NCBI GenBank assembly: GCA_021831685.1
Contig: JAKBMG010000144.1
Span: 1 to 45,991, forward strand
DNA from: Bacteroidota bacterium
GTDB lineage: Bacteria; Bacteroidota; Ignavibacteria; Ignavibacteriales; Ignavibacteriaceae
Length of the DNA stretch: 45,991 bases
Reading direction: 5' to 3'
Of this stretch, positions 25,098 to 38,472 are shown piece by piece (position 1 is the stretch's first letter; every line of letters starts with the position of its first letter). Below the pieces are notes generated by a model. It was not told the DNA's origin and ran no database searches. It saw only the letters and a program-made list of their open reading frames with translations. Both the position numbers and the translations under genes were made by a program.

Positions 25098-26555
25098 ATG
25101 TTCGAACAAACCTTTAAAAACATAGACGACGTCCTTCACAAAGATGCCGGATGCTCAAATGAATTAGACTACGTTGAACAGACCTCCTGGATTCTTTTCC
25201 TAAAATACCTTAATGATTTGGAGATTGAACGCAAAACCAAAGCAGAATTAACCGATAAGGAATACCAATTTATTATTGATAAAAAGTTTTCATGGGATGT
25301 ATGGGCAGCGCCAAAAAATGGTGACGGCAAGATTGATCGGAACAAAGCTCTTACCGGCGATGACCTTAAAGACTTTGTTGATCTAAAGCTTATTCCATAT
25401 CTGAAGAAATTTAAAGCAAACGCTGAATCTGCAAACACAATTGAATATAAAATCGGTGAAATATTCCACGAACTTAAAAACAAAATACAAAGCGGTTACA
25501 CTTTGCGTGGCGTAATCGATCTTGTTGATCAACTACGTTTTCAAAGCAGTGCTGAAAAACATGAGATGAGCCATCTTTATGAAGACAAGATTAAAAACAT
25601 GGGTAATGCCGGGCGTAACGGCGGTGAATATTATACTCCAAGACCGCTTATTAAAACTATCGTAAAAGTTGTTGCTCCGGAATTGGGTAATACTATTTAT
25701 GATGGGGCAGTTGGATCCGCAGGATTTTTATGCGAGTCATTTGAATACTTAAAAGAACAGAACAGGCATCGATCTACCGCCCAGGATAAAGTTCTACAGA
25801 GCAAAACATTTTACGGTAAAGAAAAAAAATCTCTTGCCTATATAATTGGGACAATGAATATGATTCTCCATGGAGTTGAAGCTCCAAATATTGTTCATAC
25901 AAATACCCTGAGTGAAAACCTTGCGGATATTCAGGAGAAAGACCGTTACGATATTGTGCTTGCCAATCCGCCTTTTGGGGGAAAAGAAAGGGCAGAAGTG
26001 CAGCAGAACTTTCCTATTAAAACCGGTGAAACGGCTTCTCTGTTCTTGCAGCATTTTATAAAAATACTTAAAGCAGGTGGCAGAGGAGGTGTAGTAATTA
26101 AGAATACTTTTTTAAGCAACATGGATAACGCTTCCGTAAGTCTTCGGAAACTCTTGATAGAAAGTTGCAACCTGCATACCGTCCTCGATTTACCCGGCGG
26201 AACGTTTCAAGGGGCGGGTGTAAAAACAGTTGTCTTGTTTTTCGAAAAAGGCACCCCAACAAGAAAAATATGGTATTATCAGTTGAACCTTGATAGGAAT
26301 CTTGGCAAGACAAATCCATTAAATGAAAATGATCTAGCAGAGTTTTTAAAATTACAATCAGCCAAAGCAAACAGTGAAAATAGCTGGACAGTTAAGATTG
26401 CCGATGTTAATACAACTTCCTTCGATCTTAGCGTTAAGAACCTGAACAAAAAAGAAAAAACAACACTTCGCGACCCGCAAGAAATTTTGGAAGAAATAAA
26501 ATCTTTGGATGAAGAGAGCTCTGAAATTCTTAATTCGATTAAAGACATAATATGA
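25098..26555 (+). CDS. hsdM: Type I restriction-modification system, methyltransferase subunit
   Basis: N6-adenine methyltransferase subunit of a type I system. The 485-residue protein has an HsdM N-terminal helical domain (residues 1-130), the AdoMet motif I variant IYDGAVGSAGFLCESF, and the catalytic motif NPPFGG in VLANPPFGGKERAE, followed by the GGRGGVVIKNTFL strand. With HsdS it forms the M2S methylase, and with HsdR the restriction complex. The EcoEI-like motif I and the form of hsdR suggest a type IB-like class. The stop overlaps the next ATG in ATGA. Confidence 0.94.
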   Translation: MFEQTFKNIDDVLHKDAGCSNELDYVEQTSWILFLKYLNDLEIERKTKAELTDKEYQFIIDKKFSWDVWAAPKNGDGKIDRNKALTGDDLKDFVDLKLIPYLKKFKANAESANTIEYKIGEIFHELKNKIQSGYTLRGVIDLVDQLRFQSSAEKHEMSHLYEDKIKNMGNAGRNGGEYYTPRPLIKTIVKVVAPELGNTIYDGAVGSAGFLCESFEYLKEQNRHRSTAQDKVLQSKTFYGKEKKSLAYIIGTMNMILHGVEAPNIVHTNTLSENLADIQEKDRYDIVLANPPFGGKERAEVQQNFPIKTGETASLFLQHFIKILKAGGRGGVVIKNTFLSNMDNASVSLRKLLIESCNLHTVLDLPGGTFQGAGVKTVVLFFEKGTPTRKIWYYQLNLDRNLGKTNPLNENDLAEFLKLQSAKANSENSWTVKIADVNTTSFDLSVKNLNKKEKTTLRDPQEILEEIKSLDEESSEILNSIKDII

Positions 26556-26953
26556 TTGGCTGGATGTACATATTGGAATGTTCTGATGGAAGTTATTATA
26601 CGGATAGCACTAATAATTTGGAATTAAGATTGCAGCAGCATCAAAATGGCGAGGGTGCAAATCATACTAAAAAGCATCTGCCTGTAAAATTACTATACTA
26701 TGAAGAATTTCAAAGAATTGATGAAGCTTTTTATAGAGAAAAACAAGTGCAGGGCTGGAGCAGGAAAAAGAAAGAAGCTTTAATAAAGGGACAGTCTGAA
26801 AAACTTCCGGGATTATCAAAAAACTATACGCAATATCCGCCCTCTCCGGTGGTTGAGCCTGTCGAAACCACCGGTGAAGCACACTTGCCTGAGCCTGTCG
26901 AAGGCAACATTACAACCAACCACAATACATCAAGAAACAAGGAGACAAATTGA
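26552..26953 (+). CDS. GIY-YIG nuclease-domain protein inside the hsd operon
   Basis: This 133-residue protein of the UvrC-N/YhbQ-like GIY-YIG type contains MYILECSDGSYYTDSTNNLELRL, then HTKKHLPVKLLYYEEF and EAFYREKQVQGWSRKKKEALI with the conserved Arg and Glu. The usual YxG of the second motif reads YTD, so a conserved glycine is replaced and catalysis may be weakened. After residue 90 the normal domain ends, and about 40 residues are encoded by two palindromic repeats (VVEPVETT, PEPVEG). It overlaps hsdM and hsdS by 4 bp each, so it is a translated member of the operon. Such genes are frequent hitchhikers, and a role in restriction is unproven. Confidence 0.85.
   Translation: MIGWMYILECSDGSYYTDSTNNLELRLQQHQNGEGANHTKKHLPVKLLYYEEFQRIDEAFYREKQVQGWSRKKKEALIKGQSEKLPGLSKNYTQYPPSPVVEPVETTGEAHLPEPVEGNITTNHNTSRNKETN
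26846..26907. repeat. Two REP-like palindromes within the GIY-YIG coding sequence
   Basis: Two adjacent palindromes share the loop GAGCCTGTCGA but have different self-complementary arms. Unit 1 (26846-26874) has CCGGTGGTT/AACCACCGG and unit 2 (26885-26907) has TTGCCT/AGGCAA. The same loop occurs in widespread bacterial REP-type repeats of the TTCGACAGGCTCA form. Both are read in frame as the end of the GIY-YIG protein. Confidence 0.75.
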
Positions 26954-28206
26954 GTTTGAAGCAAGATGATGCTAAAAGTTTACCGGAAGGTTGGAGCATT
27001 AAAAAGTTGGGAGATGTATGTGAAATAATAAATGGAGGTACTCCAGATACAAAAGTAAAAGAATATTGGAATGGTCAAAATCTATGGCTTACACCTAAAG
27101 ACATGGGTAAATTAAAAAGCATTTATGTAAGTGACACAGAAAGAAAGATTACTAATTCTGGGCTCAAAAATTCTTCCGCAAAGATAATACCTATTAATTC
27201 AGTTATACTTTCATCACGTGCACCAATTGGGCATTTATCGATAAATACAAAACCAATATCTACAAATCAAGGTTGTAAAGGAATTATCCCGAAAGATAAT
27301 GTTGAAACTATATTCCTTTTTTATTTTCTGCGAAATTCAGTTAATTACTTGAATGAATTAGGAAGTGGAACTACTTTTAAGGAATTATCTGGAACTAAAT
27401 TGTCTCAGATTCAGATTCCCATCCCTCCTCTCCCCGAACAAAAGCGCATCATAGCTATTTTAGATGAAGCATTTGCCGCAATAGCCAAAGCAAAAGAGAA
27501 TGCTGAAAAGAATTTACAGAATGCAAAAGATCTTTTTGAAAGCTACTTGCAGTCCGTGTTTGTTAATAAAGGAGAGAATTGGGAAGAAAAAAAATTTGGG
27601 GAGGTTTGTAATTTGATGACTGGGGGAACGCCAAGTAAAAGCAAGCCAGAATATTTTAAGAATGGTAAAATAAAATGGTTAGTCTCTGGAGATATTCACC
27701 AAAAAGAAATATTCGATTGTGACGGAAGAATTACTGAAGAAGGTCTTAAAAATTCTAATGCAAAGTATTTGCCAATTGATTCAACTATAATTGCACTTAA
27801 CGGTCAGGGCAAAACACGCGGTTCTGTTGCGCTATTACGTGTTCAAGCCACATGCAATCAATCCTTGGTAAGCATTTACCCAAAAGATAAAAAAGAAATC
27901 CTTTCAGAATATATTTATTTTAATCTTCATTCCAGGTATCAAGAGCTAAGAAAGCTAACTGGTGATGCTGGGAATGAAAGACGTGGATTAAATATGTCAA
28001 TAATTGGCAATATATATTTACCGATTCCACTACTTGAACAACAAAGAATTATTGTAAATCAAGCTTCCTTAATTAATCCAGAGATTATAAAACTACAAAT
28101 TATTTATAAGCAAAAAATAAATAGTATGGAAGACCTTAAAAAAAGCATATTACAAAAAGCATTTACTGGTGAACTTAATACAATAAAAGAAATAGAAGCA
28201 GCATGA
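26950..28206 (+). CDS. hsdS: Type I restriction-modification system, specificity subunit
   Basis: It recognises the two halves of the target site. In 418 residues it has the usual two target-recognition domains, each opening with a W-xx-KK-G motif (WSIKKLGDVCEIINGGTP near residue 16 and WEEKKFGEVCNLMTGGTP near 214). Each is followed by a conserved coiled-coil spacer (PPLPEQKRIIAILDEAF with a long helix, and a second copy with LEQQRII near the C-terminus). The target sequence cannot be predicted here. The TTG start overlaps the GIY-YIG stop, and the stop overlaps the hsdR ATG. Confidence 0.93.
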   Translation: MSLKQDDAKSLPEGWSIKKLGDVCEIINGGTPDTKVKEYWNGQNLWLTPKDMGKLKSIYVSDTERKITNSGLKNSSAKIIPINSVILSSRAPIGHLSINTKPISTNQGCKGIIPKDNVETIFLFYFLRNSVNYLNELGSGTTFKELSGTKLSQIQIPIPPLPEQKRIIAILDEAFAAIAKAKENAEKNLQNAKDLFESYLQSVFVNKGENWEEKKFGEVCNLMTGGTPSKSKPEYFKNGKIKWLVSGDIHQKEIFDCDGRITEEGLKNSNAKYLPIDSTIIALNGQGKTRGSVALLRVQATCNQSLVSIYPKDKKEILSEYIYFNLHSRYQELRKLTGDAGNERRGLNMSIIGNIYLPIPLLEQQRIIVNQASLINPEIIKLQIIYKQKINSMEDLKKSILQKAFTGELNTIKEIEAA

Positions 28207-30596
28207 ACGAAGCCGAAACAAGAGCCGAACTTATTGATCCCAGGCTGAAAGAAAACGGCTGGGATGGTAAAACAAACCCGGAAGTAAAAATACACCGGGA
28301 ATTTCCTATTGCACCGGGTAAAATAAAAACAAGCGGTGGAAGAGAAAAAGCGCTTAAAGCAGATTATGTGCTCACATACAAAACCCGTAAGCTTGCCATA
28401 GTAGAGGCAAAGAGTGATGAGCTTGAAGTTGGCGAAGGAGTAGCTCAAGCAAAAAATTACGCCGAGAAATTAAAGATCGACAATTCATACGCTGCGAATG
28501 GAAAAGAGATTTACTACATAGACATGGAGAATGCTTCTGAGGGATTAGTTAAAGAATTTCACACACCCTACCAATTATGGGATAAAACTTTCCCGGCTTT
28601 AACCGAATGGCAAAATAAGTTTGATGATGTCCCTTTTGAAAATAAAGGCGGCAGCATGGGGGGAAGGTTTTACCAGGAAATTGCAATTGAAAAAGCAATG
28701 GATGCCATTGCAGAAAAGAGAAACAGAATTCTTTTAACATTGGCAACCGGCACAGGCAAAACATTTATAGCATTTCAAATTGCATGGAAGCTATTTAACT
28801 CCCGGTGGAATTTACAATTTGACGGAAAGCGGAGACCAAGGATTTTATTTTTAGCCGATAGGAATATTCTTGCAGACCAGGCATTCAATGTGTTCTCAGC
28901 ATTCCCGGAGGATGCTTTAATACGGATTAAACCAAAGGAAATTCGAAAGAAGGGTTCGGTTCCAACCAACGGCTCAATATTCTTTACAATCTTTCAAACA
29001 TTTATGAGCGGGCCAAATAATACTCCGTACTTTGGCGAATATCCTAAAGATTTCTTTGATCTTATTTTTATTGATGAATGCCATCGCGGCGGAGCTAATG
29101 ACGAAAGCACCTGGCGCAGTATAATGGAATATTTTTCTCCGGCAGTTCAAATTGGATTAACTGCAACGCCTAAAAGAACCGAGAACATTGATACCTATAG
29201 ATACTTTGGCGAGCCGGTATATATTTATCCTCTTAAGGACGGTATTAATGACGGATTCTTAACGCCTTTTAAAGTTAAGCGCATTAAAACTTCTCTTGAT
29301 AAATACACTTACCAGCCCGATGATAAAGTTATTGAAGGAGAAATTGAGGAAGGCAAAACATATACCGAGAGTGACTTTAATAAGATCATACAGATTAAAG
29401 TCCGCGAAGAAAAGCGTGTGAAGATTTTTATGAGCTTGATAGATCAAAACGAAAAGACAATAGTATTTTGCGCTACTCAAGATCATGCAGCGGCAGTTAG
29501 AGATTTAATAAACCAGAATAAGAAAAGCAAAGAACCTAATTATTGCGTGAGAGTAACAGCAAACGACGGCGAATTGGGCGAACAATATTTACGGGAATTT
29601 CAGGACAATGAAAAATCTATCCCGACCATTCTTACCACATCTCAAAAGCTATCTACTGGCGTTGACGCCCGGAATATCCGAAACATAGTATTAATGCGCC
29701 CGATAAATAGTATGGTCGAATTCAAACAGATAATAGGAAGAGGCACCAGGCTATTCGAAGGCAAAAACTATTTCACAATTTATGATTATGTAAACGCAAG
29801 TGAAAAATTCAAAGATCCCGAATGGGATGGAGAACCTGAAGAACCGGAGCTTTGTTCTAAGTGCGGAAAATATCCGTGTGAATGTGAATTTACTCCGCCG
29901 CAGCCTTGCCCGGTATGTGGTCAAATGCCATGTGTATGTGAAAAAGAACCCCCTGAACCATGTCCTAAATGCGGGCAATATCCTTGTATTTGCAAGAAAA
30001 TGGTAAAAGTAAAATTACGTGACGGTAAAGAATATGAAATAGAACATTCGGTCGAATCTACATTTTGGGGCCCGGACGGCGAACAACTAACAGTCCAAGA
30101 ATTTCTTAACATGCTATACGGCAAGCTTCCTGAGCTATTCAAAAGTGAAGATGAACTACGTTTTATATGGGCAAACCCGGCAACGCGAAAAGCATTATTG
30201 GAAAAACTTTCGGATAATGGATTTGGAAAAGACGAACTTATTTCACTTCAAATGCTCATTGATGCAGAGAATAGTGATCTATTTGATGTATTAGAATTCA
30301 TAGCATACTCTATAAAACCAATTTCTAGAGAAAACCGGGTTGCATCTGCACAAACAAATATTTTTGCATTCCTAAATAACGAGCAAAAAGAATTTATAGA
30401 CTTTGTACTTTCAAAATACATTCAAACCGGTGTTGAAGAACTTGACCAGGAAATGTTACCCAACTTGCTTGAGCTAAAATATAACTCCGTAATCGACGCA
30501 GCCGAAAAACTTGGCAGTGTTGGCAACATTAGAGAATTATTTATAGGTTTCCAGAAGCATCTTTACGATTCAAATAATGATTATCCTTCTGAGTAA
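28203..30596 (+). CDS. hsdR: Type I restriction endonuclease subunit with a triple Cys-rich repeat
   Basis: The motor and nuclease subunit, 797 residues. The N-terminal PD-(D/E)xK nuclease signature is visible (Asp54, then Glu68-x-Lys70 in AIVEAK). A superfamily 2 translocase follows with Walker A ATGTGKT (181-187), DECH (291-294), GLTATPKR and the QIIGRGTR motif VI, then an EcoEI-like C-terminal domain. Residues 551-597 hold three tandem CxxCGxxPCxC units with an 18-residue period and Pro/Glu linkers, probably binding zinc, placed between motor and C-terminal domain. The start overlaps hsdS by 4 bp. Confidence 0.93.
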   Translation: MNEAETRAELIDPRLKENGWDGKTNPEVKIHREFPIAPGKIKTSGGREKALKADYVLTYKTRKLAIVEAKSDELEVGEGVAQAKNYAEKLKIDNSYAANGKEIYYIDMENASEGLVKEFHTPYQLWDKTFPALTEWQNKFDDVPFENKGGSMGGRFYQEIAIEKAMDAIAEKRNRILLTLATGTGKTFIAFQIAWKLFNSRWNLQFDGKRRPRILFLADRNILADQAFNVFSAFPEDALIRIKPKEIRKKGSVPTNGSIFFTIFQTFMSGPNNTPYFGEYPKDFFDLIFIDECHRGGANDESTWRSIMEYFSPAVQIGLTATPKRTENIDTYRYFGEPVYIYPLKDGINDGFLTPFKVKRIKTSLDKYTYQPDDKVIEGEIEEGKTYTESDFNKIIQIKVREEKRVKIFMSLIDQNEKTIVFCATQDHAAAVRDLINQNKKSKEPNYCVRVTANDGELGEQYLREFQDNEKSIPTILTTSQKLSTGVDARNIRNIVLMRPINSMVEFKQIIGRGTRLFEGKNYFTIYDYVNASEKFKDPEWDGEPEEPELCSKCGKYPCECEFTPPQPCPVCGQMPCVCEKEPPEPCPKCGQYPCICKKMVKVKLRDGKEYEIEHSVESTFWGPDGEQLTVQEFLNMLYGKLPELFKSEDELRFIWANPATRKALLEKLSDNGFGKDELISLQMLIDAENSDLFDVLEFIAYSIKPISRENRVASAQTNIFAFLNNEQKEFIDFVLSKYIQTGVEELDQEMLPNLLELKYNSVIDAAEKLGSVGNIRELFIGFQKHLYDSNNDYPSE

Positions 30597-30658
30597 TAAT
30601 AAAATGCATCTAAAAATTATTTATTATAAATTTCATTTATATTAATAATAAACTTTGC

Positions 30659-31900
30659 ATGAATAAAACTCTCACATATATTGACTTATTTGCGGGCACA
30701 TCGGCACTGTCTGAAGGATTTCGCCAGGCCGGGTTCCAGCCGGTAGCTCATGTAGAACACGATGAAAACGCATGCCTTACAATTAAAACTAGAATAGCTT
30801 ATCACTATTGTAAAGAAAACAACCTTGATGATTTTTACAAAGACTATTATTATGGAAGGATCAGTAGAGATAATTTTTATTCAACTATTCCATTTGATAA
30901 AACCGATTCTGTTATTAACGATGAAATTTCAGAAGATAATTTTAATCTAATAATTTCTAAAATAACCGCTGCAAAGAAACAAATCGAAGTAAATAAAATA
31001 GATGTTATCATTGGAGGTCCGCCCTGTCAGGCTTATTCGGTAAGGGGAAGGAAAGCTAATGAGCATAAGAAAAAATATGATCAGAGAATTTACTATTATA
31101 AACTTTATGCCCGGTTTTTAAGAGAACTTAAACCGAAGTTATTTGTCTTTGAAAACGTTCCCGGCCTAATTTCATTTGAAGGCGGCTACATCTTTGATGA
31201 TTTGCGCGAAACGCTGGCAAATGAAGGATACATACTTGATTACAAGATATTGAATGCTTCCGATTTCGGGGTATTGCAGGACAGAAAACGTATAATAATT
31301 ATTGGATGGAAAAAGGAATTTCCCTTTTCATATCCTTCATTTGAAAAAATTAATTACGACGCCGTTGTTTACGATTTATTTAACGATCTCCCCGTCCTGA
31401 AACCCGGCTCAAATAATCCGCCTCTTTACTATTCTACTAAATCAACTTCTTATCTGGATGAAAGTGGAATACGGAACGGATACAAGAAAATAAGTCTGCA
31501 TAACACAAGACCTCATAACGCAATTGACCTTGAAATTTATAAACGGGCAATCGATTTATGGAATACAAAACAACAAAGACTTAATTATAGTTTTTTGCCC
31601 AAAAGATTGAGAACACATAAAAACATTGAAGGATTCGTTGATCGCTTTAAAGTTGTAGCCGGCGATTCAAAATATTCCCATACATTAATTGCGCATATTG
31701 CTAAAGATGGTCATTACTATATACATCCGGATATTGACCAATGCCGTTCAATTTCTGTTCGTGAAGCTGCAAGAATTCAATCCTTCCCGGATAATTTTAT
31801 TTTTGAAGGTCCAAGAACTTCCGCTTTCACCCAGATAGGAAACGCCGTTCCGCCTTTAATGGCTAATCAAATTGCTAATATGTTAAAAGAGATTTTATGA
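30659..31900 (+). CDS. DNA (cytosine-5) methyltransferase
   Basis: It produces 5-methylcytosine in a specific sequence. The 413-residue protein contains the family motifs in order: I (YIDLFAGTSALSEGF, a variant of the usual FAGxGG), IV with the nucleophile Cys123 in GGPPCQAYS, VI ENVPGL, VIII QDRKRIIIIG, a target-recognition region at roughly 230-340, then IX REAARIQSFPDNF and X QIGNAVPPLMANQIA. It is separated from hsdR by 62 bp and overlaps the next gene in an ATGA. It therefore belongs to the following cassette and not to the type I system. Confidence 0.93.
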   Translation: MNKTLTYIDLFAGTSALSEGFRQAGFQPVAHVEHDENACLTIKTRIAYHYCKENNLDDFYKDYYYGRISRDNFYSTIPFDKTDSVINDEISEDNFNLIISKITAAKKQIEVNKIDVIIGGPPCQAYSVRGRKANEHKKKYDQRIYYYKLYARFLRELKPKLFVFENVPGLISFEGGYIFDDLRETLANEGYILDYKILNASDFGVLQDRKRIIIIGWKKEFPFSYPSFEKINYDAVVYDLFNDLPVLKPGSNNPPLYYSTKSTSYLDESGIRNGYKKISLHNTRPHNAIDLEIYKRAIDLWNTKQQRLNYSFLPKRLRTHKNIEGFVDRFKVVAGDSKYSHTLIAHIAKDGHYYIHPDIDQCRSISVREAARIQSFPDNFIFEGPRTSAFTQIGNAVPPLMANQIANMLKEIL

Positions 31901-34080
31901 AAAATATCGTCAAGTTTAGACCTAAAGCAAGAATCATGCATACTCTAGGCTCAGAGATAATTAAGGATTCTTTTGCTGCAATAATAGAATTGGTGAAAAA
32001 TTCATATGATGCTGACGCAGAGTATGTCATCATCAAGTTTTCCAAATTAAATAACATAAAAGATGCTCAAATTGTTATAGCTGATGATGGTCATGGAATG
32101 ACCTACGATACTGTCGCCAACGTTTGGATGATACCTGGGACATTAGATAAAATTGAAAGGAAACAAAGCCCAAAGGGTCGACCTTTTCTAGGAGCTAAGG
32201 GGATAGGAAGACTAGCTGCTGGAAGGATTGGCTCATTAGTAACACTCGAAACAACCGATCAAAATAAAGTTACTACTATTCTGACAGTCAATTGGAAAGA
32301 TTTTCTTGCAAATACTTATCTAGATAAGTTAGAATTTGAAATTGAAGTTCAGAATATGCATAAGGAGCCTGGAACAGAAATAATCGTTAATAATATTTCT
32401 GCAGAATGGTTCTCAGAATTTACGATTCAATCTCTAATCAAAGAGCTAAGAAAACTATTATCCCCCGTGTCAACAAAAAAAGAGAAATTTGGAATTTTTA
32501 TAGACATGGAAGACTCGGGAATAGATAATCTAAGTAAATTTCATGGCAATATCGAACCATTTCCTGTATTAGAATATTACGATTATCGTCTATGGGGAAA
32601 AGTAAAAGTTGATGGATCTGTTGAGTTAAAGTTTCAGAATGGAATTTTGAAAAGTTTACCCGCTGAAATAATAATTGATGAAATTAATCCTCATGAATTA
32701 GGTATTTATTTTTCTAATAAAAATTTATCTTTTGGTGAAATCAATGTTGATATAAGGGTTTTTGACAGGGACCCTGATTCAATTGATGAACTAATAAAAA
32801 GATCTAAATTACGCGATGAAAATGAAAAATTTCTTGGTAAACGTGAAGCTAAAAAACTTTTGGATGAGCTCTCTGGCGTTAGCTTATTCCGTGAAGGATT
32901 TAGGATAAGACCATACGGAGACTCAGGCTATGATTGGTTAGAACTTGATAGAGATAGAGTGCAAAATCCAGCTATGAGAATTGGAAGTGATCAAATTGCC
33001 GGTTATATACAAATTGGGAATGAAAAGGAAACCGGTTTAATTGAGAAAAGTAGTCGGGAGGGTTTTTTTGAGAATCAAAGTTATTTCGATTTAGTGAAAG
33101 TTGTTAAAAGGTGTATTTCGTACCTGGAAGAAAAACGATTTGACTTTAGAAAAAGAACTGGGAGAGGACGAGCAGCACGTGATATTGATAATATATTAAA
33201 TGACTTTTTAAGCATTGACAAATTGAAAAATAATATTACTAAAAAGCTTAACGAAGGAAACACATCCAAAAATATTATTTCTGAAGTCGATCAAATTATT
33301 AACAAAGAGTTTATTCAGAAGACTCAGGATTATGAGAAAATTCAAGAGACACTTTCACTTTATGAAGGACAGGTTACTTTAGGAAAAATTGTTGGTGTAT
33401 TAATGCATGAAGGAAGAAAACCCATTAAATACATTGATGAACAAGCTCCGCGTATTTCAAAATGGATTAATTATTTATTAAAACAGAAGATACTTGCCCC
33501 TGAAGATGCAATTTTTTCTAAAGAAGAAATATTAGTACGTCTGGAAGGGCTTAAGAATGAAGCTGGCTTATTAATTGCTTTGTTTAGTAAAGTCGACCCT
33601 TTAGCAGTAAAGAAAAGAAGAATTACTTCCAATATTTCAATCAAAGAACTTTTTGATAGGACAAAAATATTATTCGAATCAGAATTAAAAAAATACGGTA
33701 TAACAACTAAGTTTAATTTCAAAAATAATTTCTTTGTCAGCGGAGCAGAATCAGATATCTACATAATTCTTACTAACCTTTTTGATAACAGCATTTTTTG
33801 GCTTTCATTGTCAAAGAAAAGGGAAAGGATGATTTCTGTTGATTTATTCTATGATGATGAAAATTTAACAATAGATTTTATTGATAACGGTCCAGGAATA
33901 AAAGATGAATTTATTGAATCTATTTTTGAACCTGGCTTTTCAACTAAACCACGTGGAACCGGTTTAGGATTATCGATTGCTGGTGAAGCAGCATCCAGGA
34001 ACAATGGCTCCATTAAACTAATGAATTATAAAAATGGAACATACTTTAGAATCAGTTTGCCAAAAGGAAAAGATGTATGA
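31897..34080 (+). CDS. Dual GHKL ATPase: MORC-like N-terminus joined to a histidine-kinase-like C-terminus
   Basis: This unusual 727-residue protein has two ATP-binding GHKL modules. The first (residues 15-130) is of the MutL/Hsp90/MORC kind: ELVKNSYDADA with Asn35, DDGHGM at 63-68 and GAKGIGRLAAGR at 99-110. A long middle region follows, with SPVSTKK near 190 and helical segments. At about 504 an H-box-like MHEGRKPI (His504, HExRxP) precedes a histidine-kinase ATPase: N-box around 627-631, DNGPGI 663-668, FEPGFSTK, and GTGLG 687-691. No membrane segment is visible, so it is cytoplasmic. Its 4-bp overlaps with the methyltransferase and the receiver gene suggest a phosphorelay complex. Confidence 0.88.
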   Translation: MKNIVKFRPKARIMHTLGSEIIKDSFAAIIELVKNSYDADAEYVIIKFSKLNNIKDAQIVIADDGHGMTYDTVANVWMIPGTLDKIERKQSPKGRPFLGAKGIGRLAAGRIGSLVTLETTDQNKVTTILTVNWKDFLANTYLDKLEFEIEVQNMHKEPGTEIIVNNISAEWFSEFTIQSLIKELRKLLSPVSTKKEKFGIFIDMEDSGIDNLSKFHGNIEPFPVLEYYDYRLWGKVKVDGSVELKFQNGILKSLPAEIIIDEINPHELGIYFSNKNLSFGEINVDIRVFDRDPDSIDELIKRSKLRDENEKFLGKREAKKLLDELSGVSLFREGFRIRPYGDSGYDWLELDRDRVQNPAMRIGSDQIAGYIQIGNEKETGLIEKSSREGFFENQSYFDLVKVVKRCISYLEEKRFDFRKRTGRGRAARDIDNILNDFLSIDKLKNNITKKLNEGNTSKNIISEVDQIINKEFIQKTQDYEKIQETLSLYEGQVTLGKIVGVLMHEGRKPIKYIDEQAPRISKWINYLLKQKILAPEDAIFSKEEILVRLEGLKNEAGLLIALFSKVDPLAVKKRRITSNISIKELFDRTKILFESELKKYGITTKFNFKNNFFVSGAESDIYIILTNLFDNSIFWLSLSKKRERMISVDLFYDDENLTIDFIDNGPGIKDEFIESIFEPGFSTKPRGTGLGLSIAGEAASRNNGSIKLMNYKNGTYFRISLPKGKDV

Positions 34081-35186
34081 AGTTATTGAAACTATTAGTT
34101 GTTGATGACGATGAATCTCAGATTCAATTGTTGCTCGATCAGATTAAAGAAAAGAATAGGGATTTGCTTGTAGATCAGATAGAAATAGTCGCTGAAACTT
34201 GTAACAATAAAGACGACGCAATATTTAAAATAACAAGTATGAATTATAATGTTGCGATTGTCGATTTGAAATTGAGTAATGACAATACAAAAACGGATGG
34301 CAATGATGTGATAAAAGAAATCAAAAATAAAATGAGATTTCCGATTATCGTTCTTTCAAATTTCCCTCAAAGCTTAGACCCGGAATTAGCTGTGGAAACG
34401 GATGTATTCAGAATCAAAGAAAGAACAGCAACAAAATCATCAGCCATAATTGATGAAATTGTTGAACTTTATAAGTCGGGGATCTCTGATTTATTCGGAG
34501 AAGACGGAAGCTTATTGGAGCATATTAATAATTCTTTGAGTGAACTTTTTTGGAAAAGAGTAGCAATAAACTGGAAATACCTTGTCAATCAAATTGCAGA
34601 CCCATCGACACGACTTAAGGTAATTGCAAAACAATTGACTGTTATATTAAAAGAAGAAATGGAGATTGGTGATTTAGGTTCGGACAAATCAGAACCATTC
34701 GAAATGTATTTAATTCCACCTGTTCGTAAACATCATTATACTGGAGACATAATAGTAAAGGATGGGATCGAATATATAATACTCAGCCCCGCATGTGATA
34801 TGGAAATTCGTAGCGAAGGGAAACCTGATATTGAAAATGTTGTTATTGCTAAATTATCTAAAATAAAAGACCATGTTTATACTTCAGCATGTTGGAAGGA
34901 TAACATATTTCAAGATTCCAAAAAAGATAAAATTTTAAATCTTGTAAATTCTAAAAAAGGCGAACTCCACTTATTACCACCCTTCAACAATAAAATGGGT
35001 TTAATAATCGATTTTTCAAATATATTTAGCATTCCCTATGCTGAATTAATAAATTATAAGAGGATCGCTTCTGTAACGGAACCTTATTTAAAGAATATCA
35101 TTTCAAGATTTAGCAATCATTTTAATCGCCTCGGTCAACCTGATTTAGATAGTGATAAAATAATTCAAGAAATTAAATCTTTATAA
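34077..35186 (+). CDS. Response-regulator receiver protein with an unrecognised C-terminal domain
   Basis: The N-terminal 125 residues form a receiver domain with every phosphorylation residue: the acidic cluster Asp10-Asp12 (VVDDDES), the phosphoacceptor Asp63 (VAIVDLKLS), Ser94 (VLSNF) and Lys114 (FRIKER). The remaining 240 residues match no output domain I know. They are not a helix-turn-helix or GGDEF type and include IILSPACDMEIRSEG around residue 240. The gene directly follows the dual GHKL kinase with an ATGA overlap, so it is the likely phosphoryl acceptor. The C-terminal part may be the effector or a link to DNA or to the methyltransferase; this is inference. Confidence 0.85.
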   Translation: MKLLKLLVVDDDESQIQLLLDQIKEKNRDLLVDQIEIVAETCNNKDDAIFKITSMNYNVAIVDLKLSNDNTKTDGNDVIKEIKNKMRFPIIVLSNFPQSLDPELAVETDVFRIKERTATKSSAIIDEIVELYKSGISDLFGEDGSLLEHINNSLSELFWKRVAINWKYLVNQIADPSTRLKVIAKQLTVILKEEMEIGDLGSDKSEPFEMYLIPPVRKHHYTGDIIVKDGIEYIILSPACDMEIRSEGKPDIENVVIAKLSKIKDHVYTSACWKDNIFQDSKKDKILNLVNSKKGELHLLPPFNNKMGLIIDFSNIFSIPYAELINYKRIASVTEPYLKNIISRFSNHFNRLGQPDLDSDKIIQEIKSL

Positions 35187-35208
35187 AATTTTATTAACTT
35201 AGTGTTCA

Positions 35209-35841
35209 ATGGAACTTTCACACTATAGAATATTCATTGGAAAAGATGCACCAAAGAGGACTTTTATATGGCGTTCTAATTCCTCACCATTTAAAATAAT
35301 GGTTGCCGAGTTCATGCTTCAAAGAACAAAAGCAGAACAGGTTGAACCGGTCTATAAAAAATTCCTTCAACAATATCCGGATATTTTATCACTCTCAAAA
35401 GCTAGAATTAATAGTGTTGCAAAATATACTTCTTCCCTTGGTCTTCATAAGCGTGCGCCTGTATTTATTGCAGCATCCAAATATGTTATTAAACATTGTA
35501 AAGGTAATATTCCTAAAACAAGGGAAGAATTATTAAAAATTCCCGGTGTCGGAGATTATGTCGCCGGGGCAATTATGGCAGTTTGTTACAACAATGCTGA
35601 TTATGTTATTGACAGTAATATCGCAAGATTTATTAATAGATTTTATGGACTAAAACTATCCGGAGAAATTAGACGTAAGAAAATAATAATCGAAAGGTCT
35701 AAAGATCTGTTCCGGACAAAGAACCAACAAAAATTTCTGTTTGCACTTTTGGACTTTACAGCTTTGATTTGTAAACCTATACACCCTGGATGTCCAAATT
35801 GTCCCTTAAAAAATAATTGTGGCTTTTATTTATCTTCTTAA
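35209..35841 (+). CDS. HhH-GPD DNA glycosylase, T:G mismatch (Mig/MutY-like) type
   Basis: The 210-residue protein of the endonuclease III/MutY superfamily has a helix-hairpin-helix IPGVGDYVAGAI (111-122), catalytic Asp135 in VIDSNIARF, and a C-terminal iron-sulfur loop with Cys188, 195, 198 and 204 (C-x6-C-x2-C-x5-C). Position 117 is Tyr where bifunctional Nth has Lys, as in the archaeal Mig T:G mismatch glycosylase, and the following RFINRFYG and LLDFTALICKP segments are also Mig-like. Mig is likewise encoded beside a cytosine methyltransferase. The probable job is removing thymine created by deamination of 5-methylcytosine. It starts 22 bp after the receiver gene. Confidence 0.88.
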   Translation: MELSHYRIFIGKDAPKRTFIWRSNSSPFKIMVAEFMLQRTKAEQVEPVYKKFLQQYPDILSLSKARINSVAKYTSSLGLHKRAPVFIAASKYVIKHCKGNIPKTREELLKIPGVGDYVAGAIMAVCYNNADYVIDSNIARFINRFYGLKLSGEIRRKKIIIERSKDLFRTKNQQKFLFALLDFTALICKPIHPGCPNCPLKNNCGFYLSS

Positions 35842-35874: not shown

Positions 35875-36181
35875 TCTACAGTGCTTCTACCATCCTTTTC
35901 CTATTTCTTTCATCAAAAAAATTCACTATGCAACCACTTAAACATATTTTAATCACTGTAGCACACTTTATCAAACAGTGTCTCTCCGACAACAAAGGCA
36001 ACCCCAGCTCAACCCGAATAATAATGCTAATTATCGTCCTTTGGTTCATCGCAGATTGGCTATTAGAATTCCATTCAAAAGGATTCTACACCCTAACCTG
36101 GGAAAAACTCACACTCCTAACATCCGCATTCGGTCTAAAAGCCATCCAAAAATTCCCCGAATCCTCCGGAAATTATTCTTC
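35875..36181. repeat. Flanking direct repeat, copy 1
   Basis: This segment, from TTCTACAGTGC to GGAAATTATTCTTC, recurs in the same orientation at 38125-38472 with roughly 80-85 percent identity by eye. Copy 2 is longer because of palindromic insertions. The two copies bracket the HicAB-SecB cassette and each encodes the holin-like protein. Confidence 0.8.
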
Positions 36182-36638: not shown

Positions 36639-36707
36639 ATGCAGAAAAAAGAAATCGCTTTCTTAGCAATCTCAAAGATGATCGTTCATGATGTTCAAAA
36701 ACATTAA
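36639..36707 (+). CDS. Possible 22-residue peptide
   Basis: An ATG with a good GAGGGG ribosome site 6 bp upstream opens a 22-codon frame (KKEIAFLAISKMIVHDVQKH at its end) closing with TAA. It lies between the truncated fragment and the HicA promoter. Its N-terminus could belong to a decayed gene; no function can be assigned. Confidence 0.25.
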   Translation: MQKKEIAFLAISKMIVHDVQKH

Positions 36708-36778
36708 ACAGATGATACATCGACGCATATGTAACATAACTTTTATGAAAAAAGCTTGTGCCTTATAGCAAATAATAC

Positions 36779-36807
36779 TTGACAATTGATACTATATGTA
36801 GTATCAT
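36779..36807 (+). promoter_or_regulatory. hicAB-secB promoter with palindromic operator
   Basis: TTGACA (36779-36784) and TATCAT (36802-36807) are separated by 17 bp, a good sigma-70-type promoter. Between them, and overlapping the -10 box, is the perfect inverted repeat GATACTATATGTAGTATC (36788-36805; 7-bp arms, 4-bp centre). This is where an autorepressing antitoxin would bind, and HicB's ribbon-helix-helix segment makes it the natural candidate. The transcript would start about 6-8 bp further on, shortly before GGAG (36811) and the TTG of hicA. Confidence 0.8.
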
Positions 36808-36820
36808 AACGGAGTAAAAA

Positions 36821-37132
36821 TTGACAAATGATAAGGCTGTTGAAACAGCCAAAAAATGGCTAAAACAAAGACCGATGCCTCAAGAACTTACACCAACCGA
36901 TGTTTGGGATGTCCTTTCTGGCTTAGGTTTTGAATCCAAAGGAAAGAATTCTGATCATACAACTTTTCGATGGCAGCATGTTCATTTATTAAAAGATGAA
37001 CAATATTTTAAATTCGGCATTCTTTCTGTTTCTGTAGGTCATGCTCAAGGGCAAAAAAAAGTCGTTAGAGTTGATAGTATTAAAAAATTAATTCGTGCAT
37101 TAAATATATATTTTGAAAATGAAAACAAATAA
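36821..37132 (+). CDS. hicA: HicA-like mRNA interferase toxin
   Basis: A probable RNA-cleaving toxin of the HicA double-stranded-RNA-binding fold. The 103-residue product is longer than the typical 60-80. It has the order expected for HicA: a DVLSGLGFESKGK strand, the catalytic-type His46 in NSDHTTFRW, then FGILSVSVGHAQ and VDSIKKLIRAL. The N-terminal 25 residues and the insertion around residues 52-63 are extras. The TTG start follows GGAG by 6 bp. It precedes a HicB-type gene with overlap, which is the main support for the call. Confidence 0.78.
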   Translation: MTNDKAVETAKKWLKQRPMPQELTPTDVWDVLSGLGFESKGKNSDHTTFRWQHVHLLKDEQYFKFGILSVSVGHAQGQKKVVRVDSIKKLIRALNIYFENENK

Positions 37133-37709
37133 AAATCTTAAATATTATTTATCTCGGCCCTATAAAATTGAGATTTATTTTGAACATGAAGATAATACTT
37201 GGGTTGCAGTCCATCCTGAATTAGGTAGAGGCACATGCTATGCAATTGCTGAAACACAAGAAGAAGCGCTCAAATTACTTGCTGAAGCTAAAAAGGATAT
37301 TTTAGAAATTGCCATTTCTGAAGGTAAAGAAATCCCGGAGCCAATCTTTGAGAAAGAAGAGTTACCCAGCGGTCAATTCGTTTTAAGAATTCCACGCTCC
37401 CTTCATGCACAGCTTAAATCCCAAGCTGATAAAGAACAAGTAAGCTTAAATCAATATGTACTCACTATCTTATCAGAATATAACGGTGCGAAAAAAATCG
37501 AATTAGCTTATGCTTCTTTATTAAATAAATTGATCAAATCTTTTTTCTCTGGATCTAATCCTTGGTATAATTCTAATATTGAAATTCCTTCAATAGTTAA
37601 AAAGTCTTTTGCAATTGAATTCGATTCAAATATTAATGAAATAAATAATGTCAAAGAAATTGAAGTCAAAGACCCAACCGGTTGGAGAAATTTCTCCAAA
37701 TCGATATAG
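37119..37709 (+). CDS. hicB: HicB-like antitoxin with C-terminal extension
   Basis: The antitoxin, 196 residues from the ATG at 37119. Residues 10-75 form a HicB-like partial RNase-H fold (YKIEIYFEHEDNTWVAVHPELGRGTCYAIAETQEEALKLL in segments). Residues 82-120 are a ribbon-helix-helix DNA-binding unit (SGQFVLRIPRSLHAQLKSQ, then NQYVLTILSEY). About 76 further residues follow that ordinary HicB proteins lack, including aromatic NPWYNSN and GWRNF. In toxin-antitoxin-chaperone systems such a tail is a chaperone-addiction domain, and a SecB-like gene follows here. It overlaps hicA by 14 bp and secB by 62 bp. Confidence 0.82.
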   Translation: MKTNKNLKYYLSRPYKIEIYFEHEDNTWVAVHPELGRGTCYAIAETQEEALKLLAEAKKDILEIAISEGKEIPEPIFEKEELPSGQFVLRIPRSLHAQLKSQADKEQVSLNQYVLTILSEYNGAKKIELAYASLLNKLIKSFFSGSNPWYNSNIEIPSIVKKSFAIEFDSNINEINNVKEIEVKDPTGWRNFSKSI

Positions 37710-38097
37710 GGAGCTGTTAAATAATACTAAGTTACTTGAAATAAGTGTAATCAGCTTTAACTCATTTATTATTAGAGACAAATTTCTTCTTAAGAATAAA
37801 TTATCTATTAAAATTTCTGATAATTATAGTCTCACTTTCTCTAAAAATATTGTTAAAGCAATCGCATCTTTAGAATTAAACGTACCTATTGATAATAGTA
37901 ATGAATCTATTATCCTTATAAAAGTCGATTATGAAGTTAATATAGAAATTAAAGGAGAAATTCCTTCTGAATTTTGGAATATTTACCAGTCAGTTACGTT
38001 ACCGTTACAAATTTGGCCATATTTCCGTGAGTTCGTTCAAAACACTACATCTCGAATGAATATTCCGCCACTTACTTTACCTATTTTATTTAAATAA
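37648..38097 (+). CDS. SecB-like chaperone of a toxin-antitoxin-chaperone system
   Basis: The 149-residue product resembles SecB in length and in its closing signature IWPYFREFVQNTTSRM then IPPLTLPI (residues 122-149), which parallels the LFPYARE and PPLxL motifs of SecB. It also has alternating beta strands before it. Housekeeping SecB does not sit in TA operons. SecB-like chaperones next to HigBA, MqsRA or HicAB stabilise an antitoxin with a special C-terminal tail, and that arrangement is seen here. The start lies 62 bp inside hicB in another frame, implying coupled translation. Confidence 0.8.
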   Translation: MSKKLKSKTQPVGEISPNRYRELLNNTKLLEISVISFNSFIIRDKFLLKNKLSIKISDNYSLTFSKNIVKAIASLELNVPIDNSNESIILIKVDYEVNIEIKGEIPSEFWNIYQSVTLPLQIWPYFREFVQNTTSRMNIPPLTLPILFK

Positions 38098-38124: not shown

Positions 38125-38472
38125 TCTACAGTGCATCCAATCTTCTTTTCTCTTTTCTTTCCCCTCAAAAAATACATTCATGCAAACACTACTAAAAAAC
38201 CTGTCCGTCCTTTGGCGGATATTTTCCTCCGTAGCACAGTCATGTCCCGTTTGCGGGATTATCAAACTGTGCCTCTCCGACAACAAAGGCAACCCCAGCT
38301 CCACCAGGATCATAATGTTAATAATTGTTCTATGGTTCATCGCAGATTGGCTAATGGAATTCCATTCGAAAGGCATTTACACCTTAACCTGGGAAAAACT
38401 CACATTCCTCACATCCGCCTTCGGCTTAAAAGCCATCCAAAAATTCCCCGAATCCTCCGGAAATTATTCTTC
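38125..38472. repeat. Flanking direct repeat, copy 2
   Basis: This is the second copy of 35875-36181, beginning TTCTACAGTGC and ending GGAAATTATTCTTC. It contains about 39 bp more in its coding part, including TCCGTCCTTTGGCGGA-like and TCCCGTTTGCGGGA (38245-38258) hairpins that are absent from copy 1. Confidence 0.8.

Follow-up and report, generated by a model that had tools for sequence, protein, structure and literature searches.

The interval 36779–38097 of the analysed DNA stretch (hereafter the window, 45,991 nucleotides long, i.e., positions 1–45991 of one contig in a 4.5 Mb genome available as 221 contigs) harbors a putative toxin gene, a HicB antitoxin gene and a gene for a SecB-like protein, raising the question of whether the three constitute a HicAB-type toxin–antitoxin–chaperone (TAC) operon. 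Such an assignment is considered quite probable. The overlapping genes follow each other on the forward strand in the order foreseen by the original prediction: a remotely HicA-like toxin of 103 aa with a TTG start (36821–37132), an antitoxin HicB of 196 aa (37119–37709) and a SecB-like TAC chaperone of 149 aa (37648–38097). HicB is composed of an N-terminal domain (residues ~1–83), a ribbon-helix-helix (RHH) unit (84–118) and a tail (120–196). The start codons of all three reading frames are putative assignments; if the ATG at 37648 is indeed the start, 62 nt (37648–37709, forward strand) encode both the end of the HicB tail and the N-terminus of SecB in two frames. A TTG start, as assigned, is also found in the toxins of the related loci L011, L012, L013 and L057, and the remaining compared toxins start with ATG except for that of L027 (GTG). 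The operon status is suggested by the single row of overlapping genes and by the retention of their order in relatives: when three HicAB-TAC chaperones were used to seed a scan, 26/34 of the loci obtained showed the arrangement toxin–HicB–SecB, a figure that includes two of the seeds (L013 = L006, L022 = L007). The HicAB-TAC class has been described and examined experimentally before (Mmet-HicAB, Bordes 2016, PMC5105189), so the window operon is a further member, distinguished by a toxin missed by the family libraries and by an antitoxin end of its own. As far as the literature was searched, the cross-phylum palindrome sequence and the recurrent segment exchange described below are new.

The third protein is not readily named by profile libraries. 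Its score against the Pfam SecB family (PF02556) was 20.9 bits at a cut-off of 26, and the PADLOC model PD-T4-9_C (CmdC) gave a weak match (20.3 bits). A profile of 28 chaperone sequences, the window included, had as its first match Rv1957, the TAC chaperone of M. tuberculosis (E 7.8e-7), the match running through WPYFREFV...PPLTL. The predicted SecB likeness was upheld by the fold: in a search with the AlphaFold2 model (mean pLDDT 89.3), Foldseek placed Rv1957 on top (5mtw, E 1.8e-8), the best 19 matches listed all being SecB, and VIA-align superimposed the model on Rv1957 (Z 14.5, rmsd 2.5, 131 residues) and on E. coli SecB (Z 13.2, rmsd 2.3, 122 residues). The model thus assigns the protein to the SecB fold, nearest to the mycobacterial TAC chaperone. 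P140, P141 and L142 of the window protein aligned with the PPL of Rv1957, taken as P155–L157 on the assumption of a 3-residue offset in chain numbering; according to PMC6377645, changes at P155–L157 belong to those with the strongest effect on how the TA pair is controlled.

The antitoxin was predicted to combine an RHH unit with a tail of 76 residues, and this architecture was recovered: PF05534 matched residues 84–118 with 43.2 bits (cut-off 21), leaving a tail of ~77 residues. A profile of 26 HicB proteins matched the solved HicB structures 6u0i, 6hpb and 6g1n; the window HicB alone scored 21.2 bits against PF15919, below the cut-off of 27. A tie between long HicB and SecB emerged from a control covering the order, where 39 of 160 genomes searched with PF05534 had matches and 30 loci were returned, 27 of them with a HicB-profile reading frame (L071, L076 and L086, where no such frame was found, were left out). 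SecB adjoined all seven HicB of at least 172 aa (six order loci and the window) vs. 0/21 HicB-type proteins of at most 158 aa, with the limits that eight of these 21 are RHH proteins of 77–81 aa, which may not be HicB, and that six of the seven long ones overlap the chaperone-seeded set or the window, L070 alone being independent. In this bookkeeping, L011 lies within L056 and equals L077, and loci with identical antitoxins were taken as the same (L021/L067, L015/L072, L022/L068, L013/L078). Two order loci, L057 and L058 (longer form L075 and L080), combine toxins of the window subfamily with HicB proteins 157 and 158 aa long, and neither pair was found to have a SecB beside it; judging by their sequences, they are chaperone-free sisters of the window TAC. 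The C-terminal extension of the window antitoxin goes beyond such two-component homologues, which keep tails of 38–39 residues.

The very end of the tail deserves separate consideration. TAC antitoxins terminate in two small residues in 21/26 cases (window counted), exactly in -AA in 12; leaving the window aside, the feature occurred in 21/25 TAC HicB vs. 2/21 HicB-type proteins without SecB. The locus L019, whose HicB is truncated at the end of its contig, and L034, with a 104-aa HicB lacking RHH and ending in LAA, were left out of the tail and HicB counts. CmdA is described as ending in LAA like other TAC antitoxins and as being degraded by ClpP (Mets et al., PMC11618068). The window HicB ends in KSI and hence lacks the small-residue (ClpXP-type) C-terminus, which is a common, not a strictly defining, feature. 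L011 and L013 are also among the five exceptions and L012 ends in -VG, i.e., the small-residue end is missing in the window antitoxin and in two of its three closest TAC kin. As to the aromatic anchors predicted in the tail, a putative chaperone-addiction (ChAD) segment at 37476–37709 (forward strand), the motif NPWYNSN occupies HicB residues 147–153 and GWRNF residues 188–192. Tryptophan was present in the tails of 4/4 window-type TACs, in 0/2 two-component sisters and in only 4/22 other TAC tails, giving the anchor proposal partial support. GWRNF is doubtful because it lies in the 62 nt also coding for the SecB N-terminus, and was set aside as an anchor; its partial conservation in L011 may stem from the SecB frame. 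Binding of the chaperone by the HicB tail is, on the whole, putative.

The toxin is the least recognizable component. It matched no family above the cut-off in Pfam, NCBIfam or PADLOC, and even at E values up to 1 PADLOC yielded nothing, hence no match to the CmdT ADP-ribosyltransferase; scans of viral contigs with the toxin alone or with the chaperone alone found no relatives. Window-type toxins are rare, being detected in 2/395 genomes of the phylum and 5/164 of the order (the source genome counted in both). In the alignment of four such sequences, S-x-H is invariant and H46 is kept in 4/4; S44-D45-H46 of the window toxin aligned with the GSH motif of HicA, where the histidine is catalytic. 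The AlphaFold2 model (pLDDT 86.7) comprises the elements H-H-E-E-h-E-E-H, an order of helices and strands presumably resembling that of HicA. The fold matches listed for it (PLP-enzyme, BamC and AMPK-type domains, Z at most 4.0) were taken as chance, and no credible solved relative emerged by sequence, e.g., a centriole protein was dismissed as another chance match. Between the window and L011, pN of 0.008 and pS of 0.079 point to purifying selection on the toxin, although only seven differences enter the estimate. As a separate observation, the GSH histidine is replaced in the TAC toxins of L015, L017, L030, L032 and L033 (GSA, GSQ, GSR, GSM), which still adjoin long-tailed HicB and SecB; such toxins might be inactive or employ another catalytic residue.

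Upstream of the toxin gene, a sigma70-like promoter, TTGACA-17-TATCAT, spans 36779–36807 on the forward strand with 11/12 consensus matches (−35 at 36779–36784, −10 at 36802–36807, spacing 17 bp). It is the best of eight in the region, where 9.2 promoter-like sites are expected by chance, and it is identical in L011. The predicted transcript start near 36814 falls on the presumed ribosome site GGAG (36811–36814), and the leader from the −10 element (ending at 36807) to TTG, ~7 nt long, would not hold this site; because of this, either the promoter or the TTG start codon is provisional.

The promoter harbors a perfect palindrome, TGATACTATATGTAGTATCA, at 36787–36806 (no strand assigned), with the arms TGATACTA-TATG-TAGTATCA located between the −35 and −10 elements, which is regarded as a putative operator and the inferred HicB binding site. 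The palindrome claimed originally is therefore there, with 8-4-8 instead of 7-4-7 geometry, and the interval 36779–36807 is promoter-like as a whole, the palindrome filling only a part. By itself, the palindrome was set aside as evidence before comparison with relatives: shuffling of the 121 upstream bases gave an inverted repeat as good (arm of at least 8, spacer of at most 10) in 69/2000 rounds, and in 33/2000 with a spacer of at most 4. It becomes significant because it recurs in relatives. With the window site as the query, up to five mismatches and 150 bases before the toxin searched, it was found in 21/29 other operons vs. 0.10/29 expected from 200 shuffling rounds; the 29 comprise 27 TACs and the two chaperone-free sisters, and L011, which counts among the 21, hardly differs from the window. 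The site was missing at this threshold in the remaining eight (L014, L016, L017, L023, L030, L032, L033 and L034). With the consensus TGATACTATATATAGTATCA, the palindrome was present in 24/30 operons, the window counted. The compared loci include Ignavibacteria, Deltaproteobacteria, Fibrobacter, Delongbacteria and Chloroflexota MAGs, and the distance from TTGACA to the palindrome is the same in L011, L013 and L057. Hence, the operator-like element predicted for this operon is conserved upstream of most of the related toxin genes compared.

Several controls bear on the specificity of the site, which within the order is almost restricted to this operon type. Across the 160 genomes of the order, up to one mismatch allowed, it was present in six genomes at seven distinct sites, five of them before five window-type toxins. 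In 7/7 non-HicAB TACs (150 nt before the first gene, placed by eye), the best site had 8–12 mismatches, and in 11 loci of ordinary two-component HicB of the order, scanned at full length, the best site had 6 or 7 mismatches in nine; the other two, L059 and L060, had a site at four mismatches inside the hicB gene. Among 2.9 million viral contigs, the exact palindrome occurred in 10 stretches. HicA–HicB pairs adjoined 7/10 of these sites (four distinct protein sets), no HicAB was found within 2.5 kb of the other three, and no SecB was found in the sequence around the viral sites, the L136 stretch ending at the HicB stop. Therefore, the palindrome belongs to the lineage of RHH-HicB, not to TACs as such. 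The 20-mer occurred in none of the papers listed by a literature search; binding of palindromic operators by HicB in general is in print (PMC10865869). As a short DNA tag, the 20-bp palindrome can pick out RHH-type HicAB operons in different phyla, including those whose toxin is missed by protein models.

Comparison of the window with L011 (contig JAJYDC010000062.1, from a MAG of the same genus) revealed a mosaic. The two are some 97% identical over ~36690–37475, ~45% identical in the HicB tail, which is exchanged relative to L011, and 60–76% identical in secB codons 1–117 (37648–37998, forward strand), where ~45/72 synonymous sites differ; identity returns to 84–96%, in 50-base steps, in the last 32 secB codons and downstream to 38200. 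Synonymous differences amounted to 17/138 in the toxin and HicB core, 67/117.5 in the tail and secB 1–117, and 2/21.5 in secB 118–149 (Fisher tests on rounded counts, 1.4e-14 and 6.8e-5, with borders chosen after viewing the alignment). A gene identified by eye as argS shows 82% identity between the two genomes vs. ~97% for the toxin part, so the sharing of the latter is more recent than that of the genomes overall. A second mosaic pair, L032 and L033, comes from two Prevotellaceae MAGs and is devoid of the palindrome: pS was 0.09 in the toxin, 0.14 in the HicB core, 0.13 in the tail, 0.64 in secB 1–113 and 0.15 in secB 114–145, these borders likewise having been set with the alignment in view. 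Here, the left break falls within about the last 12 hicB codons, so that the exchange spares the greater part of the tail and affects just its end; the right break is at the WPYFREF codons, and homology stops at the operon end. In both pairs, identity is regained inside the conserved WPYFREFVQ codons of secB. The pairs L035/L038 and L028/L038 were uninformative on exchange, with pS of 0.43–0.85 across the whole operon. Thus, in two operon pairs with nearly identical promoter, toxin and antitoxin core, the 5′ four fifths of secB would derive from a diverged source, together with the antitoxin tail as a whole or just its end. The ChAD/SecB unit is described as transferable as an autonomous entity (Bordes et al., PMC5105189), and these alignments suggest that the unit is also swapped in nature, much as it was in the laboratory by Bordes et al.; no report of a natural exchange was found in a thin literature search. 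As a side observation, a 214-nt direct repeat (89% identical) with a small unnamed reading frame inside brackets the operon (35968–36181 and 38259–38472), is matched in full or in part seven times in the genome, recurs in pieces behind the L011 operon, and is possibly linked with operon movement.

Several other explanations have to be weighed against the HicAB-TAC reading. The locus could be an ordinary two-component HicAB whose tail does another job, e.g., binds the toxin or DNA, with the SecB-like gene as a passenger or a general export chaperone. HicAB pairs without SecB and with the same palindrome do occur in L057, L058 and the viral contigs, and a Pfam SecB search of the whole genome without a match at E 0.001 makes an export role conceivable, although this search is insensitive because it missed the window's own chaperone too. 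Against it stand the order loci, where long HicB and SecB always occur together, the three-gene order repeated in the chaperone loci, a set seeded by HicAB-TAC chaperones, the score of the window chaperone against the NCBIfam secB equivalog of export SecB (20.1 bits, far from the cut-off of 102.8) and its nearest profile and fold match, a TAC chaperone; this explanation is regarded as highly improbable. In-place fast evolution of the divergent segment, instead of recombination, receives equally little credence. Among the pairs with toxin identity above 50%, the tail was less alike than the HicB core, and the SecB N part less alike than the last 45 residues, in 29/29 cases (the pairs share loci and are not independent), meaning that the region also evolves fast; however, the synonymous sites jump together with the protein (67/117.5 in the window/L011 pair, pS 0.64 in L032/L033), and selection on the protein alone would not shift them.

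The toxin leaves somewhat more room for doubt, since it could be some other small toxin sharing the helix-strand layout and not a HicA-type ribonuclease. Besides the silence of the libraries, no HicA was among the 50 matches listed by Foldseek or the 50 listed by VIA-align, the hhalign probability of the window-type profile against canonical HicA was only 21.7, and the GSH histidine is replaced in 4/26 aligned TAC toxins (L015, L017, L030 and L032; L033 was left out of this alignment). Against this stands the score of 22.95 over residues 21–50 vs. 27 canonical HicA (27/30 HicA loci, picked by the G[ST]H motif), which 100 column shuffles never brought above 16.04, with H46 facing the HicA histidine. 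By hhalign, window-type toxins are also linked with the TAC toxins of GSH type (Prob 94.3, E 1e-7), a probability of 90.8 against canonical HicA results when all 26 TAC toxins are combined in one profile, and toxins of other TACs match HicA individually (L013 weakly, E 0.047; L034, E 9.4e-6). The partner, in addition, is a HicB. A toxin of another kind is deemed unlikely. Overall, the HicA likeness claimed at the outset survives as an alignment with the GSH motif scoring above shuffles, not as a family name; the protein is best called remotely HicA-like and not HicA proper.

If the HicAB-TAC reading is adopted, the following mode of operation can be envisaged. The N-terminal domain of HicB would bind the toxin, and its RHH unit would bind the palindrome, shutting off its own promoter. 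The tail would prevent HicB from folding or expose it to proteases until the dedicated SecB-like tetramer binds the tail. Once the chaperone is drawn away, HicB would be lost, the free toxin would block growth, probably by cutting mRNA, and the promoter would open. Together with the tail, the chaperone's substrate side would behave as one exchangeable unit replaced by recombination, with the promoter, toxin and antitoxin core staying in place. Autorepression, chaperone addiction, mRNA cleavage, the trigger and the direction of exchange are all inferred here.

By analogy, the most likely role of the operon would be abortive phage defence, because protection of E. coli from different phages is described for CmdTAC and an MqsRAC system (PMC9519451), a capsid protein is what CmdC senses (PMC11618068), and type I R-M and DrmMII-like methylase genes are neighbors of the operon. 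It lies at the edge of a restriction island (25098–35841) consisting of type I R-M (25098–30596), a DrmMII-like C5 methylase (30659–31900), a protein with two GHKL-type ATPase domains (31897–34080), a receiver-like protein below the Pfam cut-off (34077–35186) and a MutY-like protein matching a PADLOC nicking-endonuclease model (35209–35841). This neighborhood is no proof of defence. A large upstream neighbor matching a restriction or other PADLOC model was found in five of six related loci (none in L013), picked by eye, so the fraction is not a rate. The exchange fits, without proving, a phage-sensing module under an arms race. It is tentatively conceivable, with the odds rather against it, that HicAB TACs are modular phage sensors, in which a conserved operator–toxin–antitoxin chassis spreads between genomes and the tail and SecB substrate side are repeatedly replaced by recombination re-entering at the WPYFREFVQ codons, giving a new trigger per allele, and that the window antitoxin, having abandoned the ssrA-like small-residue end, is removed by another route. 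The two natural allele pairs, with like toxin and promoter and unlike chaperone and tail (all or part of the latter), represent ready-made trigger experiments, which could show whether the tail/chaperone unit sets the trigger.

Other TAC types were met along the way. A HEPN protein, a small reading frame ending in ALAA or SLAA and a SecB-like protein stand in one row in L008 (1447–2694), L138 (696–1893) and L139 (622–1845), all on the reverse strand; in L008, the HEPN protein matched PF05168 (E 3.4e-8) and the SecB-like protein PF02556 (E 2.8e-7), and the SecB-like proteins of L138 and L139 were named by eye. The HEPN protein was located at three places in 251 genomes, with the row complete at all of them (3/3), and the row looks like a candidate HEPN-type TAC; in PMC9098466, HEPN occurs in the reference list only. 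The same SecB-type chaperone also adjoins MqsRA-like pairs (L037, L043) and HigBA-like pairs (L039–L042, L044), the pair types being assigned by eye.

Among the known systems, Mmet-TAC of Methylomonas methanica (Metme_2813/2812 and SecB-TA; Bordes et al. 2016, PMC5105189) is likewise described as a HicA–HicB–SecB system with an antitoxin C-terminal extension, residues 119–159, and with the chaperone dependence of the antitoxin demonstrated. The window tail has 77 residues vs. 41 in Mmet-TAC, the two being likened by description. The class 4 (RHH) hicAB operons (PMC10865869) likewise encode HicB with a C-terminal RHH unit, which binds palindromic operators there; the words SecB, chaperone and TAC have 0 occurrences each in the main text of that paper. 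The M. tuberculosis TAC (HigB1–HigA1–Rv1957; PMC6377645) provides the SecB-fold chaperone whose solved structure is closest to that of the window, with the PPL motif of the binding pocket kept in the window and aromatic residues in both antitoxin tails; however, its pair is HigBA, that of the window is HicAB, and the tail sequences differ. CmdTAC (PD-T4-9; PMC11618068, PMC9519451) follows the same three-part logic, and the window chaperone weakly matches its PD-T4-9_C component, whereas CmdT is an ADP-ribosyltransferase, for which the window toxin gave no match, and CmdA ends in LAA, unlike the window HicB. Within a limited literature search, CmdTAC is the one TAC with a demonstrated natural trigger: newly made phage capsid protein draws the chaperone away (PMC11618068), and it is this capsid trigger that serves as the model for the function proposed for the window operon.
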